Notes: generated from the sequence alone by a model not told the origin. Counted from the first letter of the stretch, positions 8,887 to 48,433 are shown. The stretch is DNA of 64,000 nucleotides from Thermoplasmatales archaeon (GCA_016806715.1 CP060531.1:620001-684000); one strand, 5' to 3'. A program made the numbers and translations.

Positions 8887-9854
8887 TGGCAGATAATGAA
8901 AAAGAGACTAAGAAGATAACCATAGAGGATCTTCCCGGGGTCGGAGAAGCGACTGCCGAGAAGTTGAGAGAAAACGGATACGACGACATAATGACCCTGG
9001 CTGTTGCATCACCAAAAGACCTGTCAGAGGTAAGCGGCATAGCGGAAGGAGCGGCTATAAAGATAATAAATGCTGCAAGAAAGGCTGCCGATGTTGGTAA
9101 TTTTGAGACAGGAGAAGAGATCCTTGCACGGAGGAAGGAAGTCAGGAAACTTACCACAGGGAGCAAGAACCTTGATGACCTCCTGGGCGGTGGACTTGAA
9201 ACCCAGTCAATCACGGAATTCTTCGGCGAGTTTGGATCTGGGAAAACCCAGATAATGCACCAGCTGGCAGTCAATGTGACCATGCCGTTCGAAAGAGGCG
9301 GACTGGAAGCGGAGACCATGATAATCGATACGGAGAATACGTTCAGGCCGGAGAGGATAGTCCAGATGGCAAAGGCAAAAGGCCTTGATCCTGATGAGAC
9401 CCTCAAGCGTATACACGTTGCAAGAGCATACAACTCACATCACCAGATACTGCTGGCAGAGAAAGCTGCTGATCTCGCAAAGGAATTTAACATAAAACTT
9501 GTTGTTGTGGATTCACTCACATCACATTTCAGGTCTGAATACATGGGGAGGGGTTCACTTGCCGAGAGGCAGCAGTTACTCAACAGGCACATGCATGACC
9601 TGCTGAAATTCTCTACAATTTACAATGCAATAATAGCCGTAACAAACCAGGTATCGGCCAGGCCCGACGTATTTTTTGGAGATCCAACCACCCCAATAGG
9701 CGGGAATATCGTCGGACATACGGCAACTTTCAGGATTTACCTGAGAAAAAGCAAGGCCGGAAAGAGAATAGCCAGGCTTATAGATTCCCCCTACCTTCCC
9801 GAGGGTGAAACGGTCATACAACTTTCTGAGGATGGAATCAGCGACGGAACCTGA
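8886..9854 (+). CDS. radA: DNA repair and recombination protein RadA
   Basis: 322 residues, the usual length for archaeal RadA. The N-terminal helix-hairpin-helix region ([12 protein letters not shown], about 16-70) precedes a RecA core with Walker A GEFGSGKT (114-121), a Walker B-like LVVVDSLTS strand and the NQVSARPD segment. It forms filaments on ssDNA and catalyses strand exchange in recombination and repair. No intein interrupts it. The first base of its ATG is the last base of the GAPDH stop codon, so translation is probably coupled. Confidence 0.96.
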
Positions 9855-21046: not shown

Positions 21047-23407
21047 ATGAATGAGATGAAGGTAAAATTCAGGATAGTGGCATCCTCTTACAGGCAGAGA
21101 GATATCACCGTTGAACTGTTTGGCAGGACAGAGGACGGTAAGTCTGTCACAGCTTTGTATTTCGGCTTCAAGCCATACTTTGACATAGTAGCTCCATCCG
21201 AGGCATTCATGCAGACATTCAGGAAAAACCCTGAGTACGTGAGTGAAGAAGACAGGAAATTGTGGCTTTACGGTTCGGAAAAGGCGGTAAAGAGAGTGTT
21301 CGTGAAATCCCCATGGAAAGTGCCGGAGCTCAGGGCTCTAACCGATTCGCAGACGCTTTCTTCAGACATCCCCTTTCATCACCGCTTCATCTATGACCTT
21401 GATCTCGCGTCCAGCGTGGAAGTTGAAGGTGAGGAGCTGCCGGATGAGAAGAGAAGATATTCCACTGATATTGTCCTTAGGATAGATAAGATATCCAACA
21501 CGGTGCCATTTAACCCTGAACTCAAGATCCTGAGTTTTGACATTGAGAATTCAATCCAGTCCGGAGAGATTTACGTGATAGGTTATGCCATCTCCATGGG
21601 TAACAAAACGAAAAAGGGGGAGGTTTCCGGCAAGGAGCGAGATCTGCTCCAGAATTTTGTAAAACTGGTATGCGACGAGGATCCCGACGTGCTCACCGGT
21701 TACAACATAGACGGATACGATCTTCCAATGATCCAGGAGAGAATGGCAAAGAATGGAGTAGAATTCAATATAGGGAGGGATTTCAGGAAACCTAACCGTG
21801 TGAACAACCAGTACTGGAGGCTTCACGGAAGAGTCATAAGCGATACATGGTGGAATGTAAAGAAGATATTGCACCCTAAACACGAGACGTTGAATTATGT
21901 CGCACTGGAGCTCTTAGGAGAAGGGAAAGACAACATCAACAGGCTGAAGATAGAGGAGGAGTGGGCAAACCGCCGCCAGGAAGTAATAGATTACTGCATC
22001 AAGGACTCCTATTTGACCCTTGAAATATTCAAGAGAATGAGGGTCATCGACAGGAACCTGTTCATGTCAACAGTAACCAAGCTCCCTCTTGATGACGTGA
22101 CCAATGGAGGCACAAGCAACTACGTTGACTCCATACTGATCAGGCAGGCGGACCGCGAGAACATTGGCGTTCCAATGACATCACACGATCTCAAGGAAAA
22201 CCCGATAGAAGGAGGATATGTGCATTCAATCGGGGCCGGGCTTTATGATAATGTCGTGGTACTGGATTTCAAGAGCATGTATCCATCCATGATAATGAAG
22301 TACAACATTTGTTTCACAACATTCAATCCCAATGGGACGATAGTTGCACCAACCGGAGCAAGATTCCTAGATCCATCAAAGCGCATTGGCCTTGTTCCAA
22401 GAATCCTTAAAACCCTTATGGAAGAGAGAGACAAAGTAAAGAAGGACATGAAGAAAGCCGCAACGGAAGATGAGAAGAATTATCTGGATGGAATACAGGG
22501 TGCCCTGAAAATCCTCATGAACACCTTTTACGGAGTGCTTGCATCTTCTTTCTACAGGTTCACTAATCTTGAGATAGGTGGAGCCATAACAGCCTATGCA
22601 AGGGAGACCATTACCGGTCTCATAAACCTTCTCAAATCCGAGGGGAAGAGAGTCATTTATGGCGACACGGACAGTATATTCATAGAATCAGGGGCGACCA
22701 CACACGAGGATGCCATAAGGATTGGCGAAGACCTGAGCAAGCGACTTTCAGACAAGGAGGGGATCATAGTGGAGTTTGAGAAAGTCATGGATCCATTTTT
22801 CTCCCATGGAGCCAAAAAAAGGTACGCCGGAAAGATTGTATTCCCTCTTGAGCAGAACGGTACAGTTCTCGTGAGAGGATATGAAGTCAGGAGAACGGAT
22901 TCCTTCGACCTGCAGAGCGAGGCTCTTTCAAAGGTGTTTGATTATGTCCTTGGCAAGGACGTGGAAGGGGCCCAGGAATATGCAAACAACCTGGTTAAGA
23001 TGGTGAGTGCAGGAGACCCTAGCATAAGTATGGAGAAACTCGTGATATCACGCTCGGTGAGAAAATTTGGCGAGTACAAGGAAAATATGAATCTCGCCAA
23101 TGTAAGGGTTGCAAAGAAACTCATGGACAGGGGGGAGACCTTCATCCCCGGCATGAAAGTCTCGTGGATTGTGACAAACAGCAAAAAATCTCCCCAGGAG
23201 GTTGAACCGTTCATTGACGGGACAAAGTTTGATAGTGTCCCGGACTGGAATTATTATGCCAGCCGGGTAAGGGAAACTCTGAATCGTGTGCTTGAAAGCC
23301 TCGGGGATGAAATGAAGATACTTGAACCTTCAAACGGCTCCAACGGAAACGGAATGGCCACAAAATCGAATACGAAGGCAACCACCCTCGATGAATTCAT
23401 GGGCTAA
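21047..23407 (+). CDS. polB: Replicative-type family B DNA polymerase
   Basis: 786 residues with an intact exonuclease and polymerase set. Exo I is SFDIEN (about 165), Exo II YNIDGYD and Exo III YCIKDS. Motif A is LDFKSMYPSMI, motif B ILMNTFYGV and motif C YGDTDSIF, with D540 and D542. No intein is seen. The last roughly 30 residues form a Ser/Asn/Gly-rich linker ending in TTLDEFMG, which resembles a PIP-box-like PCNA-binding tail. It is probably the main chromosomal polymerase. ATG 21056 is a possible alternative start. Confidence 0.96.
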   Translation: MNEMKVKFRIVASSYRQRDITVELFGRTEDGKSVTALYFGFKPYFDIVAPSEAFMQTFRKNPEYVSEEDRKLWLYGSEKAVKRVFVKSPWKVPELRALTDSQTLSSDIPFHHRFIYDLDLASSVEVEGEELPDEKRRYSTDIVLRIDKISNTVPFNPELKILSFDIENSIQSGEIYVIGYAISMGNKTKKGEVSGKERDLLQNFVKLVCDEDPDVLTGYNIDGYDLPMIQERMAKNGVEFNIGRDFRKPNRVNNQYWRLHGRVISDTWWNVKKILHPKHETLNYVALELLGEGKDNINRLKIEEEWANRRQEVIDYCIKDSYLTLEIFKRMRVIDRNLFMSTVTKLPLDDVTNGGTSNYVDSILIRQADRENIGVPMTSHDLKENPIEGGYVHSIGAGLYDNVVVLDFKSMYPSMIMKYNICFTTFNPNGTIVAPTGARFLDPSKRIGLVPRILKTLMEERDKVKKDMKKAATEDEKNYLDGIQGALKILMNTFYGVLASSFYRFTNLEIGGAITAYARETITGLINLLKSEGKRVIYGDTDSIFIESGATTHEDAIRIGEDLSKRLSDKEGIIVEFEKVMDPFFSHGAKKRYAGKIVFPLEQNGTVLVRGYEVRRTDSFDLQSEALSKVFDYVLGKDVEGAQEYANNLVKMVSAGDPSISMEKLVISRSVRKFGEYKENMNLANVRVAKKLMDRGETFIPGMKVSWIVTNSKKSPQEVEPFIDGTKFDSVPDWNYYASRVRETLNRVLESLGDEMKILEPSNGSNGNGMATKSNTKATTLDEFMG

Positions 23408-37622: not shown

Positions 37623-38069
37623 CTATGTCGTTTTGCGTAGTCTTCCCATAACAATTTCCGAGAAATAAGTGATCACCAGTATGACAGAAAGCACAATCAG
37701 AGAAGTGATTGCAAAAGATAAGGCATTGTGAACGATGTATGAGAAAATTGCAAGAGCTATGGCAGGCGGATGACTGTAACGCGAGTAGGATACGAAGAGG
37801 GAAACAATGATGACATTAAGTGCCATGGAATAAAGAGAAATGCCCAGAGAAATATGAATGACCTCAGAAGACAGGATAACAAAAATATATGAAACAGCAA
37901 CAAACGACTTCCTGGAGAATTTGCTTTTACTTTCAAAGATCATGAGATAAGCTGAAACCGCATATGGCGGAGCAAGGAGAAACAGCGATCCGTATGAGGA
38001 AATAGCTATTATAATAAGCAAAGTAGCAGTGTAGAAAAGGAACCCGATGGCCTTAGGGATGTTCATTTT
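37623..38069 (-). CDS. HPP-family membrane protein
   Basis: 148 residues from ATG 38069. About five hydrophobic helices, with the family's HPP tripeptide in YSHPPAIALAIF between helices. HPP proteins are small integral membrane proteins, some linked to nitrite transport; function here is unknown. The frame is open back to 38228, but a minus-strand TATA (TTATAAA, 38103-38097) lies about 31 bases before ATG 38069 and the extra N-terminal residues are unlike membrane-protein sequence. Confidence 0.7.
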   Translation of the reverse strand, partial: KMNIPKAIGFLFYTATLLIIIAISSYGSLFLLAPPYAVSAYLMIFESKSKFSRKSFVAVSYIFVILSSEVIHISLGISLYSMALNVIIVSLFVSYSRYSHPPAIALAIFSYIVHNALSFAITSLIVLSVILVITYFSEIVMGRLRKTT

Positions 38070-38096
38070 GCACCCACTGAGAGCAATATTGCATGG

Positions 38097-38103
38097 TTTA
38101 TAA
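38097..38103 (-). promoter_or_regulatory. TATA-like element for the HPP gene
   Basis: On the minus strand this is TTATAAA, about 31 bases before ATG 38069. It decides against the long N-terminal extension of the frame. Confidence 0.45.
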
Positions 38104-38835
38104 TGTCCATGCAATCCAGGGCACGAAATAATAGTTCCAAAGATGCGTATTATACAATATTTGAGTACTGTTTCATGATTTTGGTCAGCTAAAGCATACA
38201 GACATGGAGTGGAGGGACCACTGTACACAGCTTATAAATTTGAAATGTTCATCGCATCTCTTGTGCTCGTAATCACTGTCTAGGAAGAAGACGAGTTTAT
38301 GAAAGAGATTATCAACGAAGTGCATAGTTCCATGGCCATGGAATTGTTTTGCCCCAATGTATAACCTATTTCAGGGATCTGAGTATCCTATTCCACCTGG
38401 TTCCTGTAGAATTTCTTCAGTTCCGTTACTTCAAAAATTATGTGTGACTAACAATACTGCTGATCATTTCCGGAATCTTTAACTCAGATTTCGAAACCGC
38501 CTTGTTGGTAATGGGTGTCTATACCCTTGCCAATCCAAGGACTGAAAGGGGAACATTGACCACTGGATCGGACAATATTAAATGTGATTTCATCCTTGGG
38601 ACTAATATTCATGGACTCTCGTTTTCCCATCGTTACTCCATGAAGTTCAATCAATGCGCATGAATTTGAATTGTTTAATATCAACAACTTTTCGCTGGGG
38701 CGGCAAAAATTTGAGTCTTTATGGTTTGAGAATCGTTGCGCAATAGTTAGGGATCCAATAAATCGACAAAGAATTGATAATGCCCGGTTAACGAAAAATT
38801 ATTAAGCGTCCAGAAGTTTAATGGTTGGGTTTAAG
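38104..38835. other. Gene-poor stretch of about 730 bases with broken short frames
   Basis: No supported gene. A 67-codon minus frame at 38484-38687 and a roughly 70-codon plus frame ending near 38660 (its upper part looks like a hydrophobic helix, LLIISGIF) both lack recognisable motifs and overlap each other. The region sits 1.6 kb before orc1/cdc6 and could hold decayed coding sequence or non-coding signals. I see no repeated origin-box-like motif by eye. A TATA-like AAATTATTAA near 38796-38805 probably belongs to the next gene. Confidence 0.4.
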
Positions 38836-39069
38836 ATGTCTATAGCTTTTGTTCTGATCAGCACCGTTCCGGGAAAGGAGCATGAGGTTTACAACAAGAT
38901 ATCGAAAATAAACTACGTTGTTGAAATTCACCCTCTTTTCGGGGAATACGACCTCATAGTGAAGATCGATGCCAAGGACTATAGCGAACTTGGTAAAATT
39001 GTGGTGGACCAGATAAGAACTATAGAGGGCGTTATAGATACTAAAACTCTAACGGGAATCAAACTTTGA
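38836..39069 (+). CDS. Stand-alone Lrp/AsnC-type ligand-binding (RAM) domain protein
   Basis: 77 residues from ATG 38836, matching just the C-terminal effector domain of Lrp/AsnC regulators (AFVLISTVPGKEHEVYNKI...GEYDLIVKI...IDTKTLTGI), with no DNA-binding domain. Such stand-alone domains form oligomers and may bind amino acids or modulate full-length Lrp proteins. ATG 38821 is in frame, but the TATA-like element at about 38800 favours 38836. The next gene starts 9 bases after the stop. Confidence 0.8.
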   Translation: MSIAFVLISTVPGKEHEVYNKISKINYVVEIHPLFGEYDLIVKIDAKDYSELGKIVVDQIRTIEGVIDTKTLTGIKL

Positions 39070-39078
39070 GGTGAATGA

Positions 39079-39387
39079 TTGAGTAGTCTAATTCTTAATT
39101 GGCAGAGTTTTATATTGGTGATGTTCGGCCTGATGGCAGTAGCACTTTTTGTGCTCGGCGTACTTACAGCTTACTTCGGTAGCGGCAAGAGCAGAACTGT
39201 GGGTGCTATACTACTGGTGCTTGGCATAGTTGTGGCTTTACTCGACATATTTGTAATAGACCATATGTATTTCAAGCTGGATTTCATAAACGAGATCGTG
39301 TATCCGGCAGTTTTCTACATAGTTGCTGCAGCTGTAGGTGCCGTGATAGGACTTCTAATATTCCTTGGCGCCATAATGAAAACTTAA
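39079..39387 (+). CDS. Small membrane protein, unknown function
   Basis: 102 residues with three hydrophobic segments (about 10-33, 42-60, 75-100). TTG start 9 bases after the preceding stop, with GAGGTGA overlapping that stop as ribosome binding site, so it is probably cotranslated with the RAM-domain protein. No family recognised. Confidence 0.6.
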   Translation: MSSLILNWQSFILVMFGLMAVALFVLGVLTAYFGSGKSRTVGAILLVLGIVVALLDIFVIDHMYFKLDFINEIVYPAVFYIVAAAVGAVIGLLIFLGAIMKT

Positions 39388-39398
39388 TTTTTACAACA

Positions 39399-39406
39399 TA
39401 TTTTAA
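39399..39406 (+). promoter_or_regulatory. TATA-like element for guaAB
   Basis: TATTTTAA is centred about 28 bases before ATG 39431 and supports that start over TTG 39413. Confidence 0.4.
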
Positions 39407-39430
39407 TCCCCTTTGCATTTTCCATCTGAC

Positions 39431-40372
39431 ATGAATTTTAATTCTCAAGAATTTGTAGAGACAGTTAAAAAACAGATAATGAATGAACTTGCTGGCAAGG
39501 GTATACTGGCGTGTTCTGGAGGGCAGGACAGCACCCTACTGGCTGTCATTGCCAATGAAGCTGCCGGTGACAGGATATTATCGGTTTTCATAGACACCGG
39601 ACTTCTTCGAGAAGGCGAGGTTGACAGCGTCAGGAAGACCTTTTCCAGTTTTTCGATAAATTTTAAGGTTATAGATGCCTCAGAGGAATTCATATCCGCC
39701 CTCCGTGGAGTGACTGATCCGGAGCAGAAGAGAAAAATAGTCGGAAACAAGTTCATAGAGATATTTGAACGCGTCGCGGCTGATTATGGCGCCAATACCC
39801 TGCTCCAGGGCACAATAGCTCCAGACTGGATAGAGAGTGGAGGGAAGATAAGGGATGTTATCAAGAGCCACCATAACGTAGGAGGACTACCGGAAAAGAT
39901 GAAACTTAAGCTGCTTGAGCCACTGCGTGATCTTTACAAGGATGAGATCAGGGAAGTTTCAAGGTACCTGAACATACCCAGAATCATTCAGCCATTTCCT
40001 GGCCCCGGCCTCAGCGTACGCATAATTGGCGAAGTCACGAGGGAGAGGCTGGACCTTCTCAGGAAAGCAACAAGCATAGTCGAAACTTCCATTGAAAAAT
40101 GGTATGCAGGAAGTGAGGAACTCCCATGGCAATTCTTTGCAGTTCTGCTCCCGGTGAGGACAACCGGAATACACGGAGACAAGAGGTCCTATGGATACAC
40201 TGTGGCAATAAGGGCCATAGACACCATGGATGCGATGTCCGGAACCTTTTCGAGGCTTCCATTTGACCTCCTTGACAATATGTCGACCTCCATAACAAAT
40301 GAGATAAAAGAGATAAACAGGGTGGTGTATGACGTTACAAACAAGCCCCCCGGAACAATAGAATGGGAGTAA
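39431..40372 (+). CDS. guaAB: GMP synthase subunit B (ATP pyrophosphatase)
   Basis: 313 residues from ATG 39431, the archaeal stand-alone ATP-PPase subunit of GMP synthase. The N-type PP-loop is [12 protein letters not shown], the dimerisation domain [15 protein letters not shown], and the C-terminus ends in KPPGTIEWE as in the family. It aminates XMP to GMP using ammonia from a separate glutaminase subunit, which is not in this window. Confidence 0.94.
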
Positions 40373-40408
40373 CCCCTGTCGTAATTTGATGGAGGCACAT
40401 GATAGACT

Positions 40409-41527
40409 ATGTTGATTGTGAAGAATGCTGCTAGCCTTGATTTTTCCTTTGTTCCTGGAAAATTACCTGCAAGGGAAGCGGAACTGGATATACTCAGGAA
40501 CATTATCATGGAACCTCTTAAGAGTGGCGTTTCCTCGACAATTATAATCTACGGTCCGTCAGGAACCGGAAAGACTGTGACTGCCAAGTATCTCCTCAGG
40601 AGCGACCCTAAAATAATCACTGTATATGAAAATGCCCTCTCGTTCGGCAGCCTGAAATCCCTTCTTGTTGACGTCCTTCTCAAGACTGGCAAGGTTATAC
40701 AGGATAAGGGCGTCACGTACCAGCAAATTTTCAGGATACTCAGGGGACAGATATCGGAAACCGGCGGGAAGATGCTTATAGTGATTGATGAGGCGTCAGG
40801 CATCATGAAAACAGATCCAGAAGGGTTCTACAATCTCATAAGGGCCGAGGAGCTGTATTCCGCGAAACTATCATGCATACTAATATCCATAGATGACCCT
40901 ACAACTTACCTGACGGGAAAGCAGAGAAGGTCATTTGGTGTCTTTTCCTCCATAAAGTTCAAGCCGTATTCCGAAGCCGAACTTGAGATGATTGTTGGTG
41001 ACAGGGCAAGGACAAGCCTGCACAGTGGAACCTATGCACCAAGCATAATTTCAGAGATCGCCCTTATCGCGTCGAGGTTTGGCAGTGCCAGGGTGGCAAT
41101 AGAACTCCTGCAGAAATCCGCCTATATGGCACAGGCCAACGGTACCGAAGCCATAACACCCGAGGATGTTAGGTCTGCCAAGGCACTTATAAATCCATAT
41201 GTCACGGAAAGCAAGCTTTCCGATCTCGATACTGATGAACTGATAGTGCTCATGGCAATATGCAGGAACCTGTTTGATAACCCGGAAACTGACATTTCCA
41301 GCACGTACAGTACCGCAAGAATAATCGCGGAGACCCATGATTACGACATTCCGGATCTGCAGAAAATTTACCGGGTGACGAGCAAACTCGAATCTGTCGG
41401 CATGATAGACAGCCGGATCTCAGGCAGGGGAGACAGGAAAGGCGTAAGCAAGTCCATTTTCGTGAATGATATACCTGTAAAGGTACTCTTCGAGAAGATC
41501 GAGGACATGATCAGCAGGGCAGTATAA
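40409..41527 (+). CDS. cdc6: Orc1/Cdc6 replication initiator
   Basis: 372 residues of the archaeal Orc1/Cdc6 AAA+ family. Walker A GPSGTGKT is at residues 49-56, Walker B MLIVIDEA near 123, a sensor 1-like ISID segment, and a C-terminal winged helix (about 285-370). It recognises origins and loads MCM. GGAGG lies 13 bases before the ATG. An 11-codon mini frame (ATG 40400) overlaps the start and is probably fortuitous. Its 3' end overlaps that of the convergent degenerate polymerase by 17 bases. Confidence 0.93.
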   Translation: MLIVKNAASLDFSFVPGKLPAREAELDILRNIIMEPLKSGVSSTIIIYGPSGTGKTVTAKYLLRSDPKIITVYENALSFGSLKSLLVDVLLKTGKVIQDKGVTYQQIFRILRGQISETGGKMLIVIDEASGIMKTDPEGFYNLIRAEELYSAKLSCILISIDDPTTYLTGKQRRSFGVFSSIKFKPYSEAELEMIVGDRARTSLHSGTYAPSIISEIALIASRFGSARVAIELLQKSAYMAQANGTEAITPEDVRSAKALINPYVTESKLSDLDTDELIVLMAICRNLFDNPETDISSTYSTARIIAETHDYDIPDLQKIYRVTSKLESVGMIDSRISGRGDRKGVSKSIFVNDIPVKVLFEKIEDMISRAV

Positions 41528-43505
41528 CCTGATTGCCTCTTGCACTGGATACCAGAAAGTCAAAGCTCTCGAAGGAACGCTTCAGGTACCTGAGGTAAAA
41601 ATTCCGGTCTATTCCTGTTGTTCTTTCAGGCAGCTGCACGACACCGTGCTTCCTGTCACTTACTACAACTGATACGGATTCCCCCGGCATTATGTCATCC
41701 CCGGATGAAGAGAAAAATTTCATGGTCGCACGCTGCAGGTTGTTAACCCTGTATTCTTCCATGTGCCTGCTCACCCTTGTCTCCAGGGCAAAATCATAGA
41801 GATCAAACGAGGTCATCTCCCTGAGGTACTTTTTTTCCAGGGCCTTAAGTTCTCCAGACATTGACAGTACATCATCCCTGTTTTTACATGCCCTGAAGAT
41901 ATCAAGCGCCTCCACCTGAAATCTTTTCGCAAATGCCGGGAAATCATTCCTGCGGATTTCAAGCCCACGTACCTTGAATGTGCCGTCCCTTCTCCTTCCC
42001 AGGTATCGCCCCGGAGATCCCAGGCCATTTTTTCCCTTAAAGAATGCAATCCAGCTGTACTCATCGTCAACAACTATATCAATGCGTGTCTTTTCCCTTA
42101 TCTCCTTCAGCAGGTCGCCCATGTCGCCATCCCCGCTCAGCCACAGCGAATCAACTATACCGTGTATGACGTGGAACCCGTGTTTCTCTGCAAGCTTCAT
42201 CGCTGTTGAAAATGCCCACCTGCCAATCGCGGTTATTGCCTCGTGAACTTCTATCCTCCCGAACTTCGCATTCTTGTATCCTGTGTAGCCGAAGGATGTA
42301 AGGAGCATCCACTTCAATGCCGCATCCCTTTTCTGTATAACCGGGTTGCCCTCCCTTATGGATTTGTACATAAGACGCCGATCAAGGAGTTCACCCAGCG
42401 CTGACGGAAGGAACCCTTTTTTCCCTGCGTCAACGCGATAGCCAGATCCGGGAAGTGCAGCCCCGCCATCCATTCCTATTGTTTCCGGGGAAAGATTGTA
42501 CCTCACGATGATGCTCGGGTACATCGATGAAAAATCTATTTCCGTCACATTCTCGTATATGCCAGGATCCGGTTGCAGGACAATTCCACCCTTGTCTCTT
42601 TCAAAGAGTCCGGCCGCTGGCTTCTCTTTTTCGTGATCATCCTTGTACAGAGGCACGAGTATTCCATTCTTTATTGCATGAGACACCTCGAGGGATGAGA
42701 CCGCAGTCCCGGGAGTTACCCTTGAAGCCAGCACAATTGGCAGTGATGACATCCTCGACACCTCGTAAAGGCCGGCCAGACCACTTTCAGAATATATGAA
42801 CGAGTCGGAACTTATGCATATCTTACCGGGCATGCTTATTTCAGGTGATTTATGCATGACACGACCGTAAGACTCGTATGAGGATTCGCTCCCTGCCCTG
42901 TAGTATGGCAACCTGTATCCCATTCCGGAGATCCTGTTCAGTATTTTCTGAAAAACAAGCCTGGAGTTGCTGTAAAGAATGATTGTGCTATTGTTTATGG
43001 CTTCAGCGACGTCACTGAATGACGTACCGGTCGGTGCCATTTCCTTTCCATCTATGCTTATGGACGTTAGCCCTGAAAAATCTGTCTTTCCGCCTATGAC
43101 AACTGAAGGTATCTCAGGATCTGTATCATACCGTGATCCAGTGCCGAAGAATGACAGCCCCCTCTCCGACATGAACCGAAGATGCTGGTTTATGCCGGCA
43201 TTGTATGCTGATAGTTTCCTCGACGATCCTATCACCCCTATTGCATCTATAATGCCCATTATCTGGGACTGCCTCATGGTTATCTCTAATCCATGCAACT
43301 GCCCGTAAACGTTCCTGCGGGTCGTGTACATATATGATATGCCGCGGACAAGATCAAGTTCACCGGACAGCCTTTCCAGATCGTATTCAGAACCGGAGAC
43401 AAATATCCATGGATGAAAGCTGTATTTCCTCCTGGTTATCCTTCCTTCGTCGTATTCCCAGAGAGTTATCACATCCGTCCCCGTGGCGTTTATTATCTGC
43501 CTCAA
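41511..43505 (-). CDS. Second family B DNA polymerase with disrupted catalytic motif (PolB2-like)
   Basis: 664 residues. Motif A IDFSSMYPSII (Asp near 324) and motif B region KWMLLTSFGYTGYKNA are recognisable. Motif C, normally YGDTDS, is HGIVDS: the first aspartate is Ile450 and only Asp452 remains. No Exo I DxE or matching Exo II/III residues are seen, so proofreading is also absent. This pattern is known for archaeal PolB2 proteins, long considered inactive, though a crenarchaeal member is implicated in damage tolerance. It starts at TTG inside the stop of the 83-residue gene (TTGA), the last of a three-gene cassette. Confidence 0.85.
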   Translation of the reverse strand: MRQIINATGTDVITLWEYDEGRITRRKYSFHPWIFVSGSEYDLERLSGELDLVRGISYMYTTRRNVYGQLHGLEITMRQSQIMGIIDAIGVIGSSRKLSAYNAGINQHLRFMSERGLSFFGTGSRYDTDPEIPSVVIGGKTDFSGLTSISIDGKEMAPTGTSFSDVAEAINNSTIILYSNSRLVFQKILNRISGMGYRLPYYRAGSESSYESYGRVMHKSPEISMPGKICISSDSFIYSESGLAGLYEVSRMSSLPIVLASRVTPGTAVSSLEVSHAIKNGILVPLYKDDHEKEKPAAGLFERDKGGIVLQPDPGIYENVTEIDFSSMYPSIIVRYNLSPETIGMDGGAALPGSGYRVDAGKKGFLPSALGELLDRRLMYKSIREGNPVIQKRDAALKWMLLTSFGYTGYKNAKFGRIEVHEAITAIGRWAFSTAMKLAEKHGFHVIHGIVDSLWLSGDGDMGDLLKEIREKTRIDIVVDDEYSWIAFFKGKNGLGSPGRYLGRRRDGTFKVRGLEIRRNDFPAFAKRFQVEALDIFRACKNRDDVLSMSGELKALEKKYLREMTSFDLYDFALETRVSRHMEEYRVNNLQRATMKFFSSSGDDIMPGESVSVVVSDRKHGVVQLPERTTGIDRNFYLRYLKRSFESFDFLVSSARGNQVILPC

Positions 43506-43753
43506 ACGCTTTCATCCCCGAGTCGCTTTTCCATGGCATCGATCCTCTTTGCGAGTTCCAGTATTATGGAGATCAGGAACCCGGAGAAACTGTCAAGTGT
43601 CGATGTTGATACTTCCGGTGAATGGATCTGCCCCATGGCGATTATCCGTTCAAAAACCGCCACGTCCTCCATTCTCATTACTGATTCCATCTTCCTGATC
43701 CGATCGACCATGAGTCTTGTCTCCTGCCTGGCCGTCAATGTTGTTCTTCCCAA
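43502..43753 (-). CDS. Small helical protein in the PolB2-like cassette
   Basis: 83 residues, all predicted helix, charged, with repeated hydrophobic spacing suggesting a short coiled coil (RLMVDRIRKMESVMR, then ISIILELAKRIDAMEKRL at the end). No motif recognised. It overlaps the preceding gene by 19 bases and the polymerase start by 4, so all three are translationally coupled. A polymerase accessory or bridging role is inference. Confidence 0.65.
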   Translation of the reverse strand: MGRTTLTARQETRLMVDRIRKMESVMRMEDVAVFERIIAMGQIHSPEVSTSTLDSFSGFLISIILELAKRIDAMEKRLGDESV

Positions 43754-44199
43754 GAGTACAGTCCTCCCTCAACATGCTTCTCAACGTTGTGCTCCAGGGA
43801 AACAAAACGCTTGCCCATGTACTGCATAAAAATTCCAGGTTCGCCGATTACATAAAAGTATATCATACAGCCACGGTAGTATGACTTTATCTTCATGATG
43901 TCGTATATACTCTGCAGGATATCTGGTTCCCATGATGATATGATCTCTGACCGGATCCCTATGAAATGTGGATCGTTGTCTGTCTCCATCAGTGCTTTCT
44001 GCATCTGGTAGGATGTCAGTATTCTCTGCACCATTACGCTCTCTACGGCATTTTCTGGGAATTGCCTGAGAAAATCCACCATGATGCCATCGGACACCAT
44101 GAGGTGCTTCTTCCCGCCGTCTCCGGCTTCTTCCATGAACCTGCCGAATTCAGCGGCTCCAAGGTTGTCGGATATCATCATCCTGAGGTGGCCTGACAT
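43735..44199 (-). CDS. Unknown protein heading the PolB2-like cassette
   Basis: 154 residues, soluble. An N-terminal helical part (MISDNLGAAEFGRFM) precedes a mixed alpha/beta part containing IKSYYRGCMIYFYVIGEPG. I recognise no family; the length and start would suit a small regulator or nuclease-like protein, but no catalytic motif is visible. A TATA-like TATTTTC (44230-44224, minus) lies about 28 bases upstream, so it probably heads the operon. Confidence 0.6.
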   Translation of the reverse strand: MSGHLRMMISDNLGAAEFGRFMEEAGDGGKKHLMVSDGIMVDFLRQFPENAVESVMVQRILTSYQMQKALMETDNDPHFIGIRSEIISSWEPDILQSIYDIMKIKSYYRGCMIYFYVIGEPGIFMQYMGKRFVSLEHNVEKHVEGGLYSWEEQH

Positions 44200-44223
44200 G
44201 TTCCAAATTATCAGGACATACGT

Positions 44224-44230
44224 GAAAATA
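44224..44230 (-). promoter_or_regulatory. TATA-like element for the PolB2-like cassette
   Basis: TATTTTC on the minus strand, about 28 bases before ATG 44199. Confidence 0.3.
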
Positions 44231-44324
44231 GTTTTGAGTAAATAAAAAAATGAGCAAATGAGATATTGCGAATACTTTCTGAACGCATTTTCATGGAATG
44301 AGATTACCCTGAAACTCCGACGAG

Positions 44325-46169
44325 CTAATAATTAAGGCTGGATTTTCCATTGTTTTTGAGCTTGTCGTTCAGTTTCACTGCAGCCCTGATTATGCCGAGA
44401 TGAGTGATGGCCTGCGGAAAATTCCCCAGGAGTTCCTTCGTGTCAAAATCCACTTCCTCGGAAAACAGGCCGAGATGGTTTCCCATTGCCATAATTGTCT
44501 CAAACACTTCCTTGGCCTGACGGGTCCTGTTCATCGCAATGAGAACCTCAACGTACCAGAAAGAGAGCAGGAGAAAAGCGTTGTCTCTTCCCTTCAGGCC
44601 GTCATCCTCGAGATATCTCCGGAAAAGGAAATTGTTTCCCATTAACGTCTTCTCTATCAGGCTAACAGTACCGATCATTTTCTTGTCATGCGGTGGAAGG
44701 AAACCAAGCAGTAGCATCCTTAACAGAGCGGCATCGGTATCATTTGATCCATAGTACTGCATGAAGCTGTTTTTCTCCTTGCTGAAGCCAAGAGTTATAA
44801 TCTCTTTTTTTATGGTGTTCTCTGTCTTCTCCCACTGCGAGTATGGAGCAGACAGCTCAAGCATTTTACCGAGTTCCCTGGCCCTGTGGAAAGCCGTCCA
44901 TGACATTAACTTTGAATAAACGTAATGCTTGGGCTCTGTCCTGAATTCCCATATGCTGGAATCAGGCATTTTCCAGGTCACTGCCAGGTTATCAAGGATA
45001 TCTATGACAAAATCCCAGAGATATGAATTTATCAGCCCGCCTATCTTTCCGAGGTAGTATATTGCATTTATTATTGACCCGTACTGGTCCACCTGAAGTT
45101 GTGAAGAAGCTTTGTTTCCTATTCTAACCGGCCTGGATGACATGAAACCATCATAATCCAGCTCAACTTCGTCTATATTTTCATCATTGTTTATGGAATA
45201 TATTGTTCTGACGCGCCCTTCCCTCTGTATCATGTTCATTATATCGTACAGGAATTTTGTAGCCTCTTTCTTGTACCCGATCATTGACAGGGATTCCACG
45301 ACATACGCGGTGTCCCTTATCCATGCGTACCTGTAGTCCCAGTTCCTCTCGCCACCAATGCATTCCGGTAAACTCGCGGTGGGGGCTGCAACCATCAATC
45401 CGGTCGGTTCAAAGAAAAGGCTTTTTAAGGTTAACGCGGACCTGTTCACACTTCCCCTGAATATCCCATGATAATTGCTCAGGTTGCTCCAGGTCTTCCA
45501 GTAATTTTCTGTGTCTTCCAGCCTGGCGTATGACTTGTAGTCACTAACCCGGTCGAGATGCTTGATCCCGTAGAGAACGATCATCCACCTCGAATCACCT
45601 CTCTCCATCTTAATAGTGCTTGAAACGTGTGGGCCGGTACCCTGTAAAGCGGCATCTGTGGCAAGTCCTATGCTGTAGCCGTTTCCGCGGAAGATAACGC
45701 CATTCCTGTTCCTGAACATTCTTGGGACCAGGGAGCCGTAACCGAAATTTGGCTTGAAATTCACATCTACGTCTATGTCCGCATAAGGCGCTTCCAGCGA
45801 CCTGTGGATCTCTGGAAAATTTATGGTAGTATATTCAGACGCGGGAATAAAATCTGTGACCCTGAGTACAGTTTGCCTGTTCTTCAGGAATTCAGTTATC
45901 AGGATATTTGTGTACTCTTCGTAACTCTGCCTCACAGCCAGGCCTTTTATATCTGATGGCCTGACGGAGAAAAACCCGCCCTTGTCCTTGTCAAGAATTG
46001 AGTCAAAAACTGCAGGGGAGTTGAAGTTAGGCAGGCATGCCCAGTCAATAGTGCCATTCATGCTTACGAGGGCAGCTGTTCTGTTGCTCGCAATCATTCC
46101 ATGGTTTTTTATCTTTGAATATCCATTTATTTCTATGTCGTCGATGTTTATTGTTTCTCCTAATGCCAT
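44325..46169 (-). CDS. Glycoside hydrolase family 15 (glucoamylase or trehalase)
   Basis: 614 residues: N-terminal beta-sandwich (about 1-230) and C-terminal (alpha/alpha)6 barrel. Family marks are GTIDWACLPNFNSPAVF, GGERNWDYRYAWIRD and the catalytic-acid region IWEFRTEPKHYVYSK. The second catalytic region, usually G-E-E-G-x-F, reads GRDNAF, so the base may be Asp instead of Glu. Thermoplasma GH15 members act on alpha-glucans or on trehalose. No signal peptide, so intracellular. Substrate not decidable here. Confidence 0.9.
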   Translation of the reverse strand: MALGETINIDDIEINGYSKIKNHGMIASNRTAALVSMNGTIDWACLPNFNSPAVFDSILDKDKGGFFSVRPSDIKGLAVRQSYEEYTNILITEFLKNRQTVLRVTDFIPASEYTTINFPEIHRSLEAPYADIDVDVNFKPNFGYGSLVPRMFRNRNGVIFRGNGYSIGLATDAALQGTGPHVSSTIKMERGDSRWMIVLYGIKHLDRVSDYKSYARLEDTENYWKTWSNLSNYHGIFRGSVNRSALTLKSLFFEPTGLMVAAPTASLPECIGGERNWDYRYAWIRDTAYVVESLSMIGYKKEATKFLYDIMNMIQREGRVRTIYSINNDENIDEVELDYDGFMSSRPVRIGNKASSQLQVDQYGSIINAIYYLGKIGGLINSYLWDFVIDILDNLAVTWKMPDSSIWEFRTEPKHYVYSKLMSWTAFHRARELGKMLELSAPYSQWEKTENTIKKEIITLGFSKEKNSFMQYYGSNDTDAALLRMLLLGFLPPHDKKMIGTVSLIEKTLMGNNFLFRRYLEDDGLKGRDNAFLLLSFWYVEVLIAMNRTRQAKEVFETIMAMGNHLGLFSEEVDFDTKELLGNFPQAITHLGIIRAAVKLNDKLKNNGKSSLNY

Positions 46170-46412
46170 GAATACCTTATGGTAGGGGTGATTCAGTATC
46201 CGATAATAATTCTTACTGTGTATATTACCAGATAGGTGTACTGCTATTGCTGCAATTTATAACAGAAATCGTTATTTATAGCCATTTTCCTGACCATACA
46301 GGCTCCAGCTTTCGCAAGCTAATCTGCCAAATCCTGCACAGTGTCAAGTGAACAGCGCGGATAACCTGAAAGGGTCTTGCAATTAACGCCAGAGAGGAGA
46401 GAGGAAATGATT

Positions 46413-47702
46413 CTACTCGGCGATCCTGATATAACTATACGGCTTCATCTTTCCGAAGCAGTACTTTATCTCTCCATGCGACTCTTTCAACTCCTTCACG
46501 GCAGATATTACCCCTTCAGGCGATTTCTTCCTTATGACCACGTCGGCGATAAGCCCGGCAATCTCCTTCATTTCGGACTTCCCGAAACCTATCCTGGTCA
46601 CTTCCTGTGTGCCAAGCCTTATTCCACTCGGGTCCTGAGACCTCTTGTTGTCATCCCACGGAAGGAGATTCTTGTTGGCTATGATGTGTGCGCTTTCCAT
46701 AGACTCAGCCGCTAACCTGCCTCCTCCATAGCCTCTCACGTCCACCACGATTGTGTGTGATTCCGTAAACCCGCGGTTTTCTCCAAGAACCTTGAATCCT
46801 GCAGAGCTCAGCTCCTCGGCAAGCGCCTTTGCGTTTGATATTATCTGGTCTGCGTATGCTTTTCCGAACTCCAGCTCCTCGGCAAGCGTGACCCCAAGGG
46901 CGGCCATGCTGTTAAGATGGTGGTTGCTTATGGTTCCAGGGAAAATTGCCCTTTGGAGAGATTTCCAGGTATCATCGTCTGTGTTACCGAGAAGTATTCC
47001 GTGTTGCGGGCCGGGAAGAGTTTTGTGCGTACTTCCCGTGATTATGTCAGCGCCTTCTCTCAGGGGATCCTGGAACCTGCCTCCGGCTATAAGGCCAAGC
47101 ACATGGGCACCGTCGTACCATACCTTGCATCCAACCTCCTGGAAAGCATCCTTCAGCTGGGCTATGGGTGTGGGAAAGAGGAATACAGATTGGCCAAAGA
47201 GGCATACCTTCGGTTTCTCTGCCTTTATGAACTTAATTGTCTTGTCTACATCTATGTTCATGTTGTCAACGTCAAAGGGGTAGTTGACAACGTTCACTCC
47301 GCGAAGCCCCATGGCACCGAACTTGGCAGCGCTTATATGTCCGCCGCCGGAAAGGGGAGGAGCAGCCACCTTGTCGCCAGGCTTTGCCAGGGCGTATATT
47401 GCGGCCGTGTTTGCCCCTGTCCCAGATACAGGCCTGGGATCAGCCTGATCGACCTTAAACAGACGCCTGGCGAGGTCGATGGTAAGATCCTCTACCTGAT
47501 CAACAAAGAAATTCCCCTGATAGTACCTGTGATGTGGCAGACCCTCGGCATACCTGAATCCGAAGTCTGTAAGAAGCATTTCCATAGCCATTGGGCTCAT
47601 TATATTTTCAGACGCAATGAGTGGTATGCTTTCTTCGAAGAACTTGTTATGATCAATTGCAAGTTGTCTTATCTTCAAAACACTATCTATATTTTTTTCC
47701 AT
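46413..47702 (-). CDS. glyA: Serine hydroxymethyltransferase
   Basis: 429 residues. The PLP lysine is in TGSTHKTLPGPQHG, and RPVSGTGANTAA and YDGAHVLGLIAGG are typical. It interconverts serine and glycine and moves a one-carbon unit to a pterin. Thermoplasmatales also carry fhs and folP, as here, so THF is the likely carrier. An A+T-rich TATA-like run (about 47721-47730) lies 24 bases before the ATG. Confidence 0.95.
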   Translation of the reverse strand: MEKNIDSVLKIRQLAIDHNKFFEESIPLIASENIMSPMAMEMLLTDFGFRYAEGLPHHRYYQGNFFVDQVEDLTIDLARRLFKVDQADPRPVSGTGANTAAIYALAKPGDKVAAPPLSGGGHISAAKFGAMGLRGVNVVNYPFDVDNMNIDVDKTIKFIKAEKPKVCLFGQSVFLFPTPIAQLKDAFQEVGCKVWYDGAHVLGLIAGGRFQDPLREGADIITGSTHKTLPGPQHGILLGNTDDDTWKSLQRAIFPGTISNHHLNSMAALGVTLAEELEFGKAYADQIISNAKALAEELSSAGFKVLGENRGFTESHTIVVDVRGYGGGRLAAESMESAHIIANKNLLPWDDNKRSQDPSGIRLGTQEVTRIGFGKSEMKEIAGLIADVVIRKKSPEGVISAVKELKESHGEIKYCFGKMKPYSYIRIAE

Positions 47703-47899
47703 TTTATTATATCCATAGTGAATATATTTAGCTTATCACACACATGTTTCACGGGATTGCCAGATTGAAAATTAGCAGAAACAGGGCAAACACCCTTCAT
47801 TTGCCTGAATTACTCAAGCGATTGAGACGCTTACCATAACAAGTTAGGCTTGCTTCTTACATATAAGTAAAGCATAAGTAATTATAGGTACCGGTAAAA

Positions 47900-48433
47900 A
47901 TGACTGATCTTGTTGAGGTTCTCATAATCGATCACCTCACCATAAAACACACTGGTGAACTTTTCGACCCTGACAGTGAATTAGGTGATTTTATAAACTT
48001 TCACAGTTATCTGAAACAATGCCATATGGAGATTGAGGAAAAAATACTCTTCCCTGCACTCAAGAAAGGAGTATGGGGGGATGAGAGATGGTTCTTCCTC
48101 AAGATAGAACAATTGATAAAAGACCATAAACTCCTTGATGACCTGGTCCAGAACATAATTGAATGGCACAGAACCGGGCAACTGGACCTTGTGAGAGAAC
48201 ATATACCGCTCTATTTCAAGATCCTTGTTGATCACAACAACAGCGAAGAATCTTATATTTTTGGCAGATGGAAGCAGATGCCGGAAGAGAAACGTTATAC
48301 AGCATTGAGAGAAGCAAGGGAAGTGGTAAGAAACTTCGGGCTGAAGAGATATCTGGGAGTTACTGAACTTTCAGAGGGTGCTTTCCATTACATGTTCGGC
48401 GAACCAGCGGGAATTGAGAACCCGGCCGTATAA
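47900..48433 (+). CDS. Hemerythrin-like HHE domain protein
   Basis: 177 residues with a four-helix HHE bundle over about 1-135. Metal-ligand-like positions: H12, HMEIE (HxxxE), DHKLL, and DHNNSEE (HxxxE). The family binds a di-iron centre and senses or carries O2 or NO, or protects against them. The C-terminal about 40 residues are an extra tail. The gene stands alone between glyA and a gene-poor stretch. Confidence 0.88.
   Translation: MTDLVEVLIIDHLTIKHTGELFDPDSELGDFINFHSYLKQCHMEIEEKILFPALKKGVWGDERWFFLKIEQLIKDHKLLDDLVQNIIEWHRTGQLDLVREHIPLYFKILVDHNNSEESYIFGRWKQMPEEKRYTALREAREVVRNFGLKRYLGVTELSEGAFHYMFGEPAGIENPAV

Follow-up and report, generated by a model that had tools for sequence, protein, structure and literature searches.

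The operon studied here lies in a stretch of 64,000 nucleotides (nt) from a Thermoplasmatales archaeon (CP060531.1:620001-684000, GCA_016806715.1), referred to below as the window, with positions counted from its first letter. Its three genes are assigned to iRadA (inactive RadA homolog), PPB2 (partner of PolB2) and PolB2, a family B DNA polymerase, and they are convergent with a gene for a second Orc1/Cdc6 paralog (Table 1). Very probably, this locus encodes a PolB2 mutasome, best read as a damage-inducible lesion-bypass holoenzyme. The PolB2 mutasome itself is already known, its operon and structural models having been reported by Makarova 2014 (PMC4104785) and Timinskas 2025 (PMC11791011); what is added here is that iRadA is strongly reduced, that the convergent non-initiator Orc is constant and that the promoter carries a conserved element. 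In the original prediction, made from the sequence of the window, the operon had been described as a maintained cassette beside orc1/cdc6, consisting of a catalytically degraded polymerase and two small partners that had not been characterised. These partners can now be read as PPB2 and iRadA, both of which have been published (PMC4104785, PMC11791011).

Polymerase

By its sequence, the polymerase is a true PolB2, as had been predicted. It matches NCBIfam NF004416 (PRK05761.1-2) with 591 bits against a cutoff of 516, and in a tree a branch at 100/99 separates all 26 PolB2 rows from PolB3. This tree comprised PolB3 of the same genome and its relatives, two solved archaeal PolBs, and PolB2 of further lineages (Archaeoglobales, Methanomicrobiales, Methanoperedens, Theionarchaea, Micrarchaeota and four bacterial groups), and the polymerase does not fall with PolB3.

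A HMMER alignment to the solved PolBs sets HGIVDSLW opposite YGDTDSLF, so that motif C reads H448-G-I450-V-D452 (HxxxD), the first Asp being replaced by Ile450 and D452 retained. This is where the original prediction had put motif C, and no other placement was obtained. Motif A is likewise kept (EIDFSSMYPSII, with D324), and the D(K/R) motif upstream of it is D304-K305. Residues D304, D324, H448 and D452 are invariant across 37 aligned rows, motif B is invariant as well, and position 450 is I or V in every close relative. The same pattern holds in every PolB2 row of the tree table (first motif C Asp absent, second kept, D(K/R)-type loop), while the PolB3 rows have YGDTD. The predicted lack of exonuclease residues is consistent with the Pfam search, in which the polymerase domain alone was found and no exonuclease domain was matched. 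The AlphaFold2 model of full-length PolB2 is confident, with a predicted local distance difference test score (pLDDT) of 88.6 and a predicted template modelling score (pTM) of 0.84.

The loss of the first motif C Asp and the missing exonuclease domain match, together with the tight link to the Orc gene, would fit a PolB2 devoid of catalytic activity that acts with the Orc paralog to scaffold or regulate replication restart, a role put forward in 2014. We consider this quite unlikely, as neither the ligands of the catalytic metals, D324 and D452, nor motif B vary, and as Sulfolobus Dpo2, carrying the same HxxxD motif, matches the replicase Dpo1 in activity (PMC8764526). Sulfolobus Dpo2 is an active, non-proofreading extender polymerase (PMC8764526) and is needed for targeted mutagenesis (PMC7390963). 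The word "degraded" is therefore appropriate for motif C and not, by this analogy, for the expected activity of PolB2.

Reduced iRadA

The first gene of the operon encodes a protein of 154 amino acids (aa) which, judging from sequence comparison and modelling, is best explained as a strongly reduced iRadA in which only a short turn is left of the P-loop. This assignment is made because the gene occupies the same operon slot, because its profile similarity to iRadA is well above that of shuffled controls, and because a RecA fold is predicted for it. Elsewhere in the phylum, the iRadA that occupies this slot is clearly similar to Rad51 (E 6e-9 for L161 and L254; DMC1 and RadA matched in the PDB), and sister families carry divergent iRadA forms there. 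When the 154-aa profile was compared with iRadA sets using hhalign, scores of 35-42 were obtained, whereas 20 column shuffles did not exceed 17 and the reversed profile reached 11. An AlphaFold2 model (pLDDT 80), built from an alignment of short-family sequences only, without any RadA, was matched by Foldseek to RecA, UvsX, RadA, RAD51C-XRCC3, KaiC and SulA folds.

Several results weigh against this assignment. The 154-aa protein has no match to RadA among Pfam, NCBIfam or PDB sequences, the sequence similarity to iRadA is weak, with an HH-suite probability of only 31-78%, and the TM-scores (template modelling scores) of the model to RecA-type folds are about 0.5. Outside the window's family, the profile of the 154-aa protein finds members in one sister family only. 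One might suppose that an unrelated small protein took the place of iRadA in this order, a reading for which the absent database matches speak. It is nevertheless unlikely, given that the slot and the overlap with PPB2 are the same as for iRadA elsewhere, that the profile score far exceeds the 20 shuffles and the reversed control, that the RecA/RadA-like fold was predicted from a RadA-free alignment, and that divergent forms are present in sister families. Two other candidates were rejected: DUF3467, matched by 1/39 members at E 0.016, below the cut-off, and a beta-lactamase match from a PDB search with the family, judged to be due to chance.

As a reduced iRadA, the protein would have lost its ATPase residues: the Walker A pattern GxxxxGK[ST] is nowhere present in the 154-aa sequence, and the P-loop position is a short turn at residues ~11-14. 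Its core VQRILTSYQLQKIL aligns with VARAFTAYQLVSLI of iRadA and YARAYTSEHQVELL of RadA/DMC1. In Rad51, the segment equivalent to VQRILTSYQLQKIL helps to build the pocket for the oligomerisation motif of the neighbouring protomer. A pocket-type contact between PolB2 and iRadA has been proposed (PMC11791011). The 154-aa iRadA may thus be a natural minimal RecA core that keeps only the polymerase-docking surface. Unlike the iRadA of the published mutasomes, that of this family is only ~116-163 aa long and has no sequence-detectable RadA similarity.

PPB2

On sequence grounds, the 83-aa gene product is PPB2 (arCOG07300), whose members are ~80-90 aa long. M1, G2, R3 and R9 are invariant in 35 aligned relatives, the PPB2 profile matches 154/391 Thermoplasmatota genomes, and a PolB2 gene adjoins PPB2 in nearly all loci fetched. 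The MGRT arm, which is N-terminal, has been described for PPB2/arCOG07300, and published models place it between PolB2, iRadA and DNA (PMC11791011). One locus (L060:2875-3522) carries an iRadA-PPB2 fusion, encoded by one open reading frame (ORF).

Conservation of the unit and the second Orc

The ORF calls bear out the predicted gene overlaps, which are 19 bases between iRadA and PPB2 (43735-43753) and 4 bases between PPB2 and PolB2 (43502-43505, TTGA), with the TTG start of PolB2 spanning the TGA stop of PPB2. The 3' ends of orc1/cdc6 (+) and polB2 (-) also overlap, by 17 bases. The order iRadA-PPB2-PolB2, convergent with Orc, is constant in 60/60 complete family loci (the window plus 59), a complete locus being one with all genes on the contig; one further locus begins inside polB2 at a contig end, and Orc is still present. 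Overlaps along the unit occur in 40/60, 40/60 and 47/60 family loci. Both small genes are kept alongside the polymerase, and the ratio of nonsynonymous to synonymous substitution rates (dN/dS) of the unit's genes is mostly 0.06-0.14. Because I or V is found in all close relatives, because the cassette recurs in 60 loci and because dN/dS is low, neither the Ile450 pattern nor the cassette is due to chance. The cassette is maintained under purifying selection, as had been predicted, and the possibility that PolB2 is a decaying pseudogene was rejected on these dN/dS values and on its presence in 64/77 genomes. By comparison, the outer neighbours in the window recur rarely (GuaA in 3/60 and GH15 in 17/60 other loci).

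The original prediction was right about the adjacency of orc1/cdc6 and made too little of this gene, which belongs to the module. The second Orc is present in exactly those family genomes that have PolB2 (64/77) and was found in none of the 13 family genomes lacking PolB2, four of which are 99% complete; such co-loss is not independent proof of function, as the genes are adjacent and one deletion or one missing contig removes both. Since it is absent from the PolB2-less genomes, the second Orc is dispensable. It is, as far as its sequence tells, a non-initiator paralog: in a tree, it and the corresponding second Orc from a sister family form one group (100/97), apart from the clade that contains the other Orc of its own genome, Sso Orc1-1 and Ape Orc1. 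That the linked Orc is an intact AAA+/winged-helix Orc1/Cdc6 protein (Pfam, NCBIfam) would also suit a replication initiator, with the cassette merely lying near an origin. This is highly improbable, because a different Orc of the genome groups with Sso Orc1-1 and Ape Orc1, because the linked one is missing from 99%-complete family genomes without PolB2, and because the gap to its upstream neighbour is just 36 bases. arORC2 genes have been noted in many euryarchaeal PolB2 neighbourhoods (Makarova 2014, PMC4104785).

Promoter element

A tandem YCATTTKCTCATTTT element, with at most 2 mismatches, was found in 49/59 family promoters, where 1.3 were expected from Markov controls. It is mostly positioned 46-50 nt upstream of the start codon of the first gene, and the exact element occurs as a single copy in this genome (reversed-pattern control, 0). 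Across 27 aligned promoters, the A+T fraction is 1.0 at -27 and -26. The operon transcript is probably leaderless, because a box resembling the transcription factor B recognition element and TATA box (BRE/TATA) is centred ~26 nt before the ATG. Lying ~20 bp upstream of the TATA box, the tandem element occupies the place of activator binding in archaea. No earlier description of it was found in the literature searched.

In Sulfolobus, the non-initiator Orc1-2 drives the damage response and controls damage genes through the hexamer ANTTTC (PMC9738581). Similarly, a second non-initiator Orc is tied to PolB2 here, and ANTTTC is contained in many copies of the element (as ATTTTC); unlike the Sulfolobus site, the element repeats a CATTTT half-site in tandem. 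The hexamer alone is modestly enriched (43/60 promoters, with 25 expected and a shuffle maximum of 39). An ATTTTC near -25 in the window was considered as a DNA damage-responsive element (DDRE) and rejected, as it is the TATA-like box.

In sister family f4, the element is present in variant form and the second Orc is unlinked. In sister family f3 (L155, L156), the PolB2 cassette is kept, with a divergent iRadA, a single Orc and no tandem element. Because the element and the second Orc go together across the window's family, f4 and f3, albeit few lineages, the sequences suggest that the element may be a target of the second Orc. In genomes without a second Orc, element counts are too low to discriminate. 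It may be instead that the element is bound by some other regulator, e.g., a helix-turn-helix (HTH) or ribbon-helix-helix (RHH) factor, a reading that we are marginally inclined to accept. Small genes, a MazE-like gene and a CdrS-like RHH gene likewise lie downstream of the element in related genera, and the element resembles the DDRE over only a 6-mer; against this, the element and the second Orc are both present in the window's family and f4 and both missing from f3, again a matter of few lineages.

The wider distribution of the element was as follows. In genus g8, there are 4-11 copies per genome (reversed pattern, 0), often 46-47 nt before small conserved genes. Three small-gene families, one unknown of 60-67 aa, one MazE-like of 55-65 aa and one unknown of 61 aa, are preceded by it, mostly at that distance, in g8 and one outgroup (L313-L315, L322, L325, L326, L328, L330-L332, L334, L336, L337, L339, L340, L348), and form a candidate damage regulon. 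In genus g12 (L312, L345), it lies ~93-95 nt before a CdrS-like RHH gene (NCBIfam CdrS 40 bits, below the cut-off), a hint that cell division control may be involved. At L316, L324, L335 and L338, it is followed by a conserved stretch without a clear ORF, which may encode a small RNA or be a gene that the ORF rule passed over. In G038 (L317-L319, L321), near-identical copies precede transposon-like genes, and the high count there is partly repeat-borne.

Proposed mechanism and comparison with known systems

We infer lesion bypass, the geometry of the complex and damage induction from work on Sulfolobus and from the published models, and lesion bypass, raised in the original prediction, remains the best reading by that analogy. 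We propose that: DNA damage probably switches the operon on via the tandem CATTTT element; the operon would give rise to one leaderless message, with translational coupling through the gene overlaps; PolB2, as a proofreading-less family B polymerase, would carry primer extension beyond lesions and mismatches; PPB2, modelled in the literature as a trimer of three-helix chains, may bridge the polymerase, iRadA and DNA via its MGRT arm; and iRadA may be a dead RecA-fold adaptor with a bare core, binding PolB2 in the way that RadA protomers bind each other.

When the genome, which is 97% complete, was searched for a Y-family polymerase (PF00817), none was found; the control search was positive in 11/14 genomes. 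As far as sequence searches reach, PolB2 is the only known candidate translesion polymerase in this genome. This makes one difficulty for the mutasome reading: Sulfolobus Dpo2 is a poor inserter that works beside a Y-family enzyme, for which no counterpart was found here. The scheme of a Y-family inserter and a PolB2 extender thus cannot apply unchanged, and if the mutasome is apparently the sole translesion system, the division of labour between insertion and extension must differ from that in Sulfolobus.

Compared with the published PolB2 mutasomes of archaea and bacteria (PMC11791011, PMC4104785), the locus shares the three components and their order, the MGRT arm, the D(K/R) motif, the HxxxD motif C, a nearby orc and the occasional iRadA-PPB2 fusion. 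It differs, in addition to its short iRadA, in that the orc is always convergent and mostly overlapping, and in the conserved tandem promoter element. Damage-inducible Sulfolobus Dpo2 is likewise a PolB2 with Ile for the first motif C Asp and no proofreading (PMC8764526, PMC7390963), but Sulfolobus has the Y-family Dpo4. E. coli Pol V (UmuC, UmuD', RecA) is comparable too, in that a polymerase for lesion bypass is joined by a small oligomeric protein and by a subunit with the RecA fold (PMC11791011); its polymerase, however, belongs to the Y-family and not the B-family, and RecA is active in Pol V, whereas the RecA-fold partner here would be dead.

A machine studied chiefly in Sulfolobus is thus placed in Thermoplasmatales, where it is apparently the only translesion system of this genome. 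We also infer, in a form that can be tested, that the second Orc may control the mutasome through the element. It is possible, and we put it forward tentatively, that in Thermoplasmatales: the second Orc is a dedicated damage regulator acting via the tandem CATTTT element on the mutasome and, in some genera, on a wider regulon (small genes and a CdrS-like regulator); and the mutasome, with its minimal dead RecA core, is the sole lesion-bypass polymerase of the cell. If true, Orc-driven damage control would be an ancient archaeal scheme and not a peculiarity of Sulfolobus. The co-occurrence of the element and the non-initiator Orc raises the question of whether an Orc is a master switch of the damage response outside Sulfolobales.

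Layout of the locus and other genes in the window

Table 1. Coordinates of the genes and promoter features of the locus within the window.
Feature	Position	Strand	Remarks
Second Orc1/Cdc6 paralog (arORC2-like, non-initiator clade)	40409-41527	+	convergent with polB2
PolB2 family B DNA polymerase	41511-43505	-	664 aa, TTG start
PPB2 (partner of PolB2, arCOG07300)	43502-43753	-	83 aa, TTG start, MGRT arm with R3 and R9
Putative reduced iRadA (inactive RadA homolog)	43735-44199	-	154 aa, ATG, first gene of the operon
BRE/TATA-like CAAAACTATTTTC	44224-44236	-	centre ~26 nt upstream of the iRadA ATG
Tandem promoter element TCATTTGC-TCATTT	44248-44261	-	48 nt upstream of the iRadA start codon

An Rfam scan of 38000-48000 gave no match. 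The window also contains a canonical radA at 9129-9845 (+), matching Pfam Rad51 with 282 bits and located ~35 kb from the mutasome genes. The other PolB of the genome is encoded at 22079-23299 (+) and is of the PolB3 type, with an intact YGDTD motif C.

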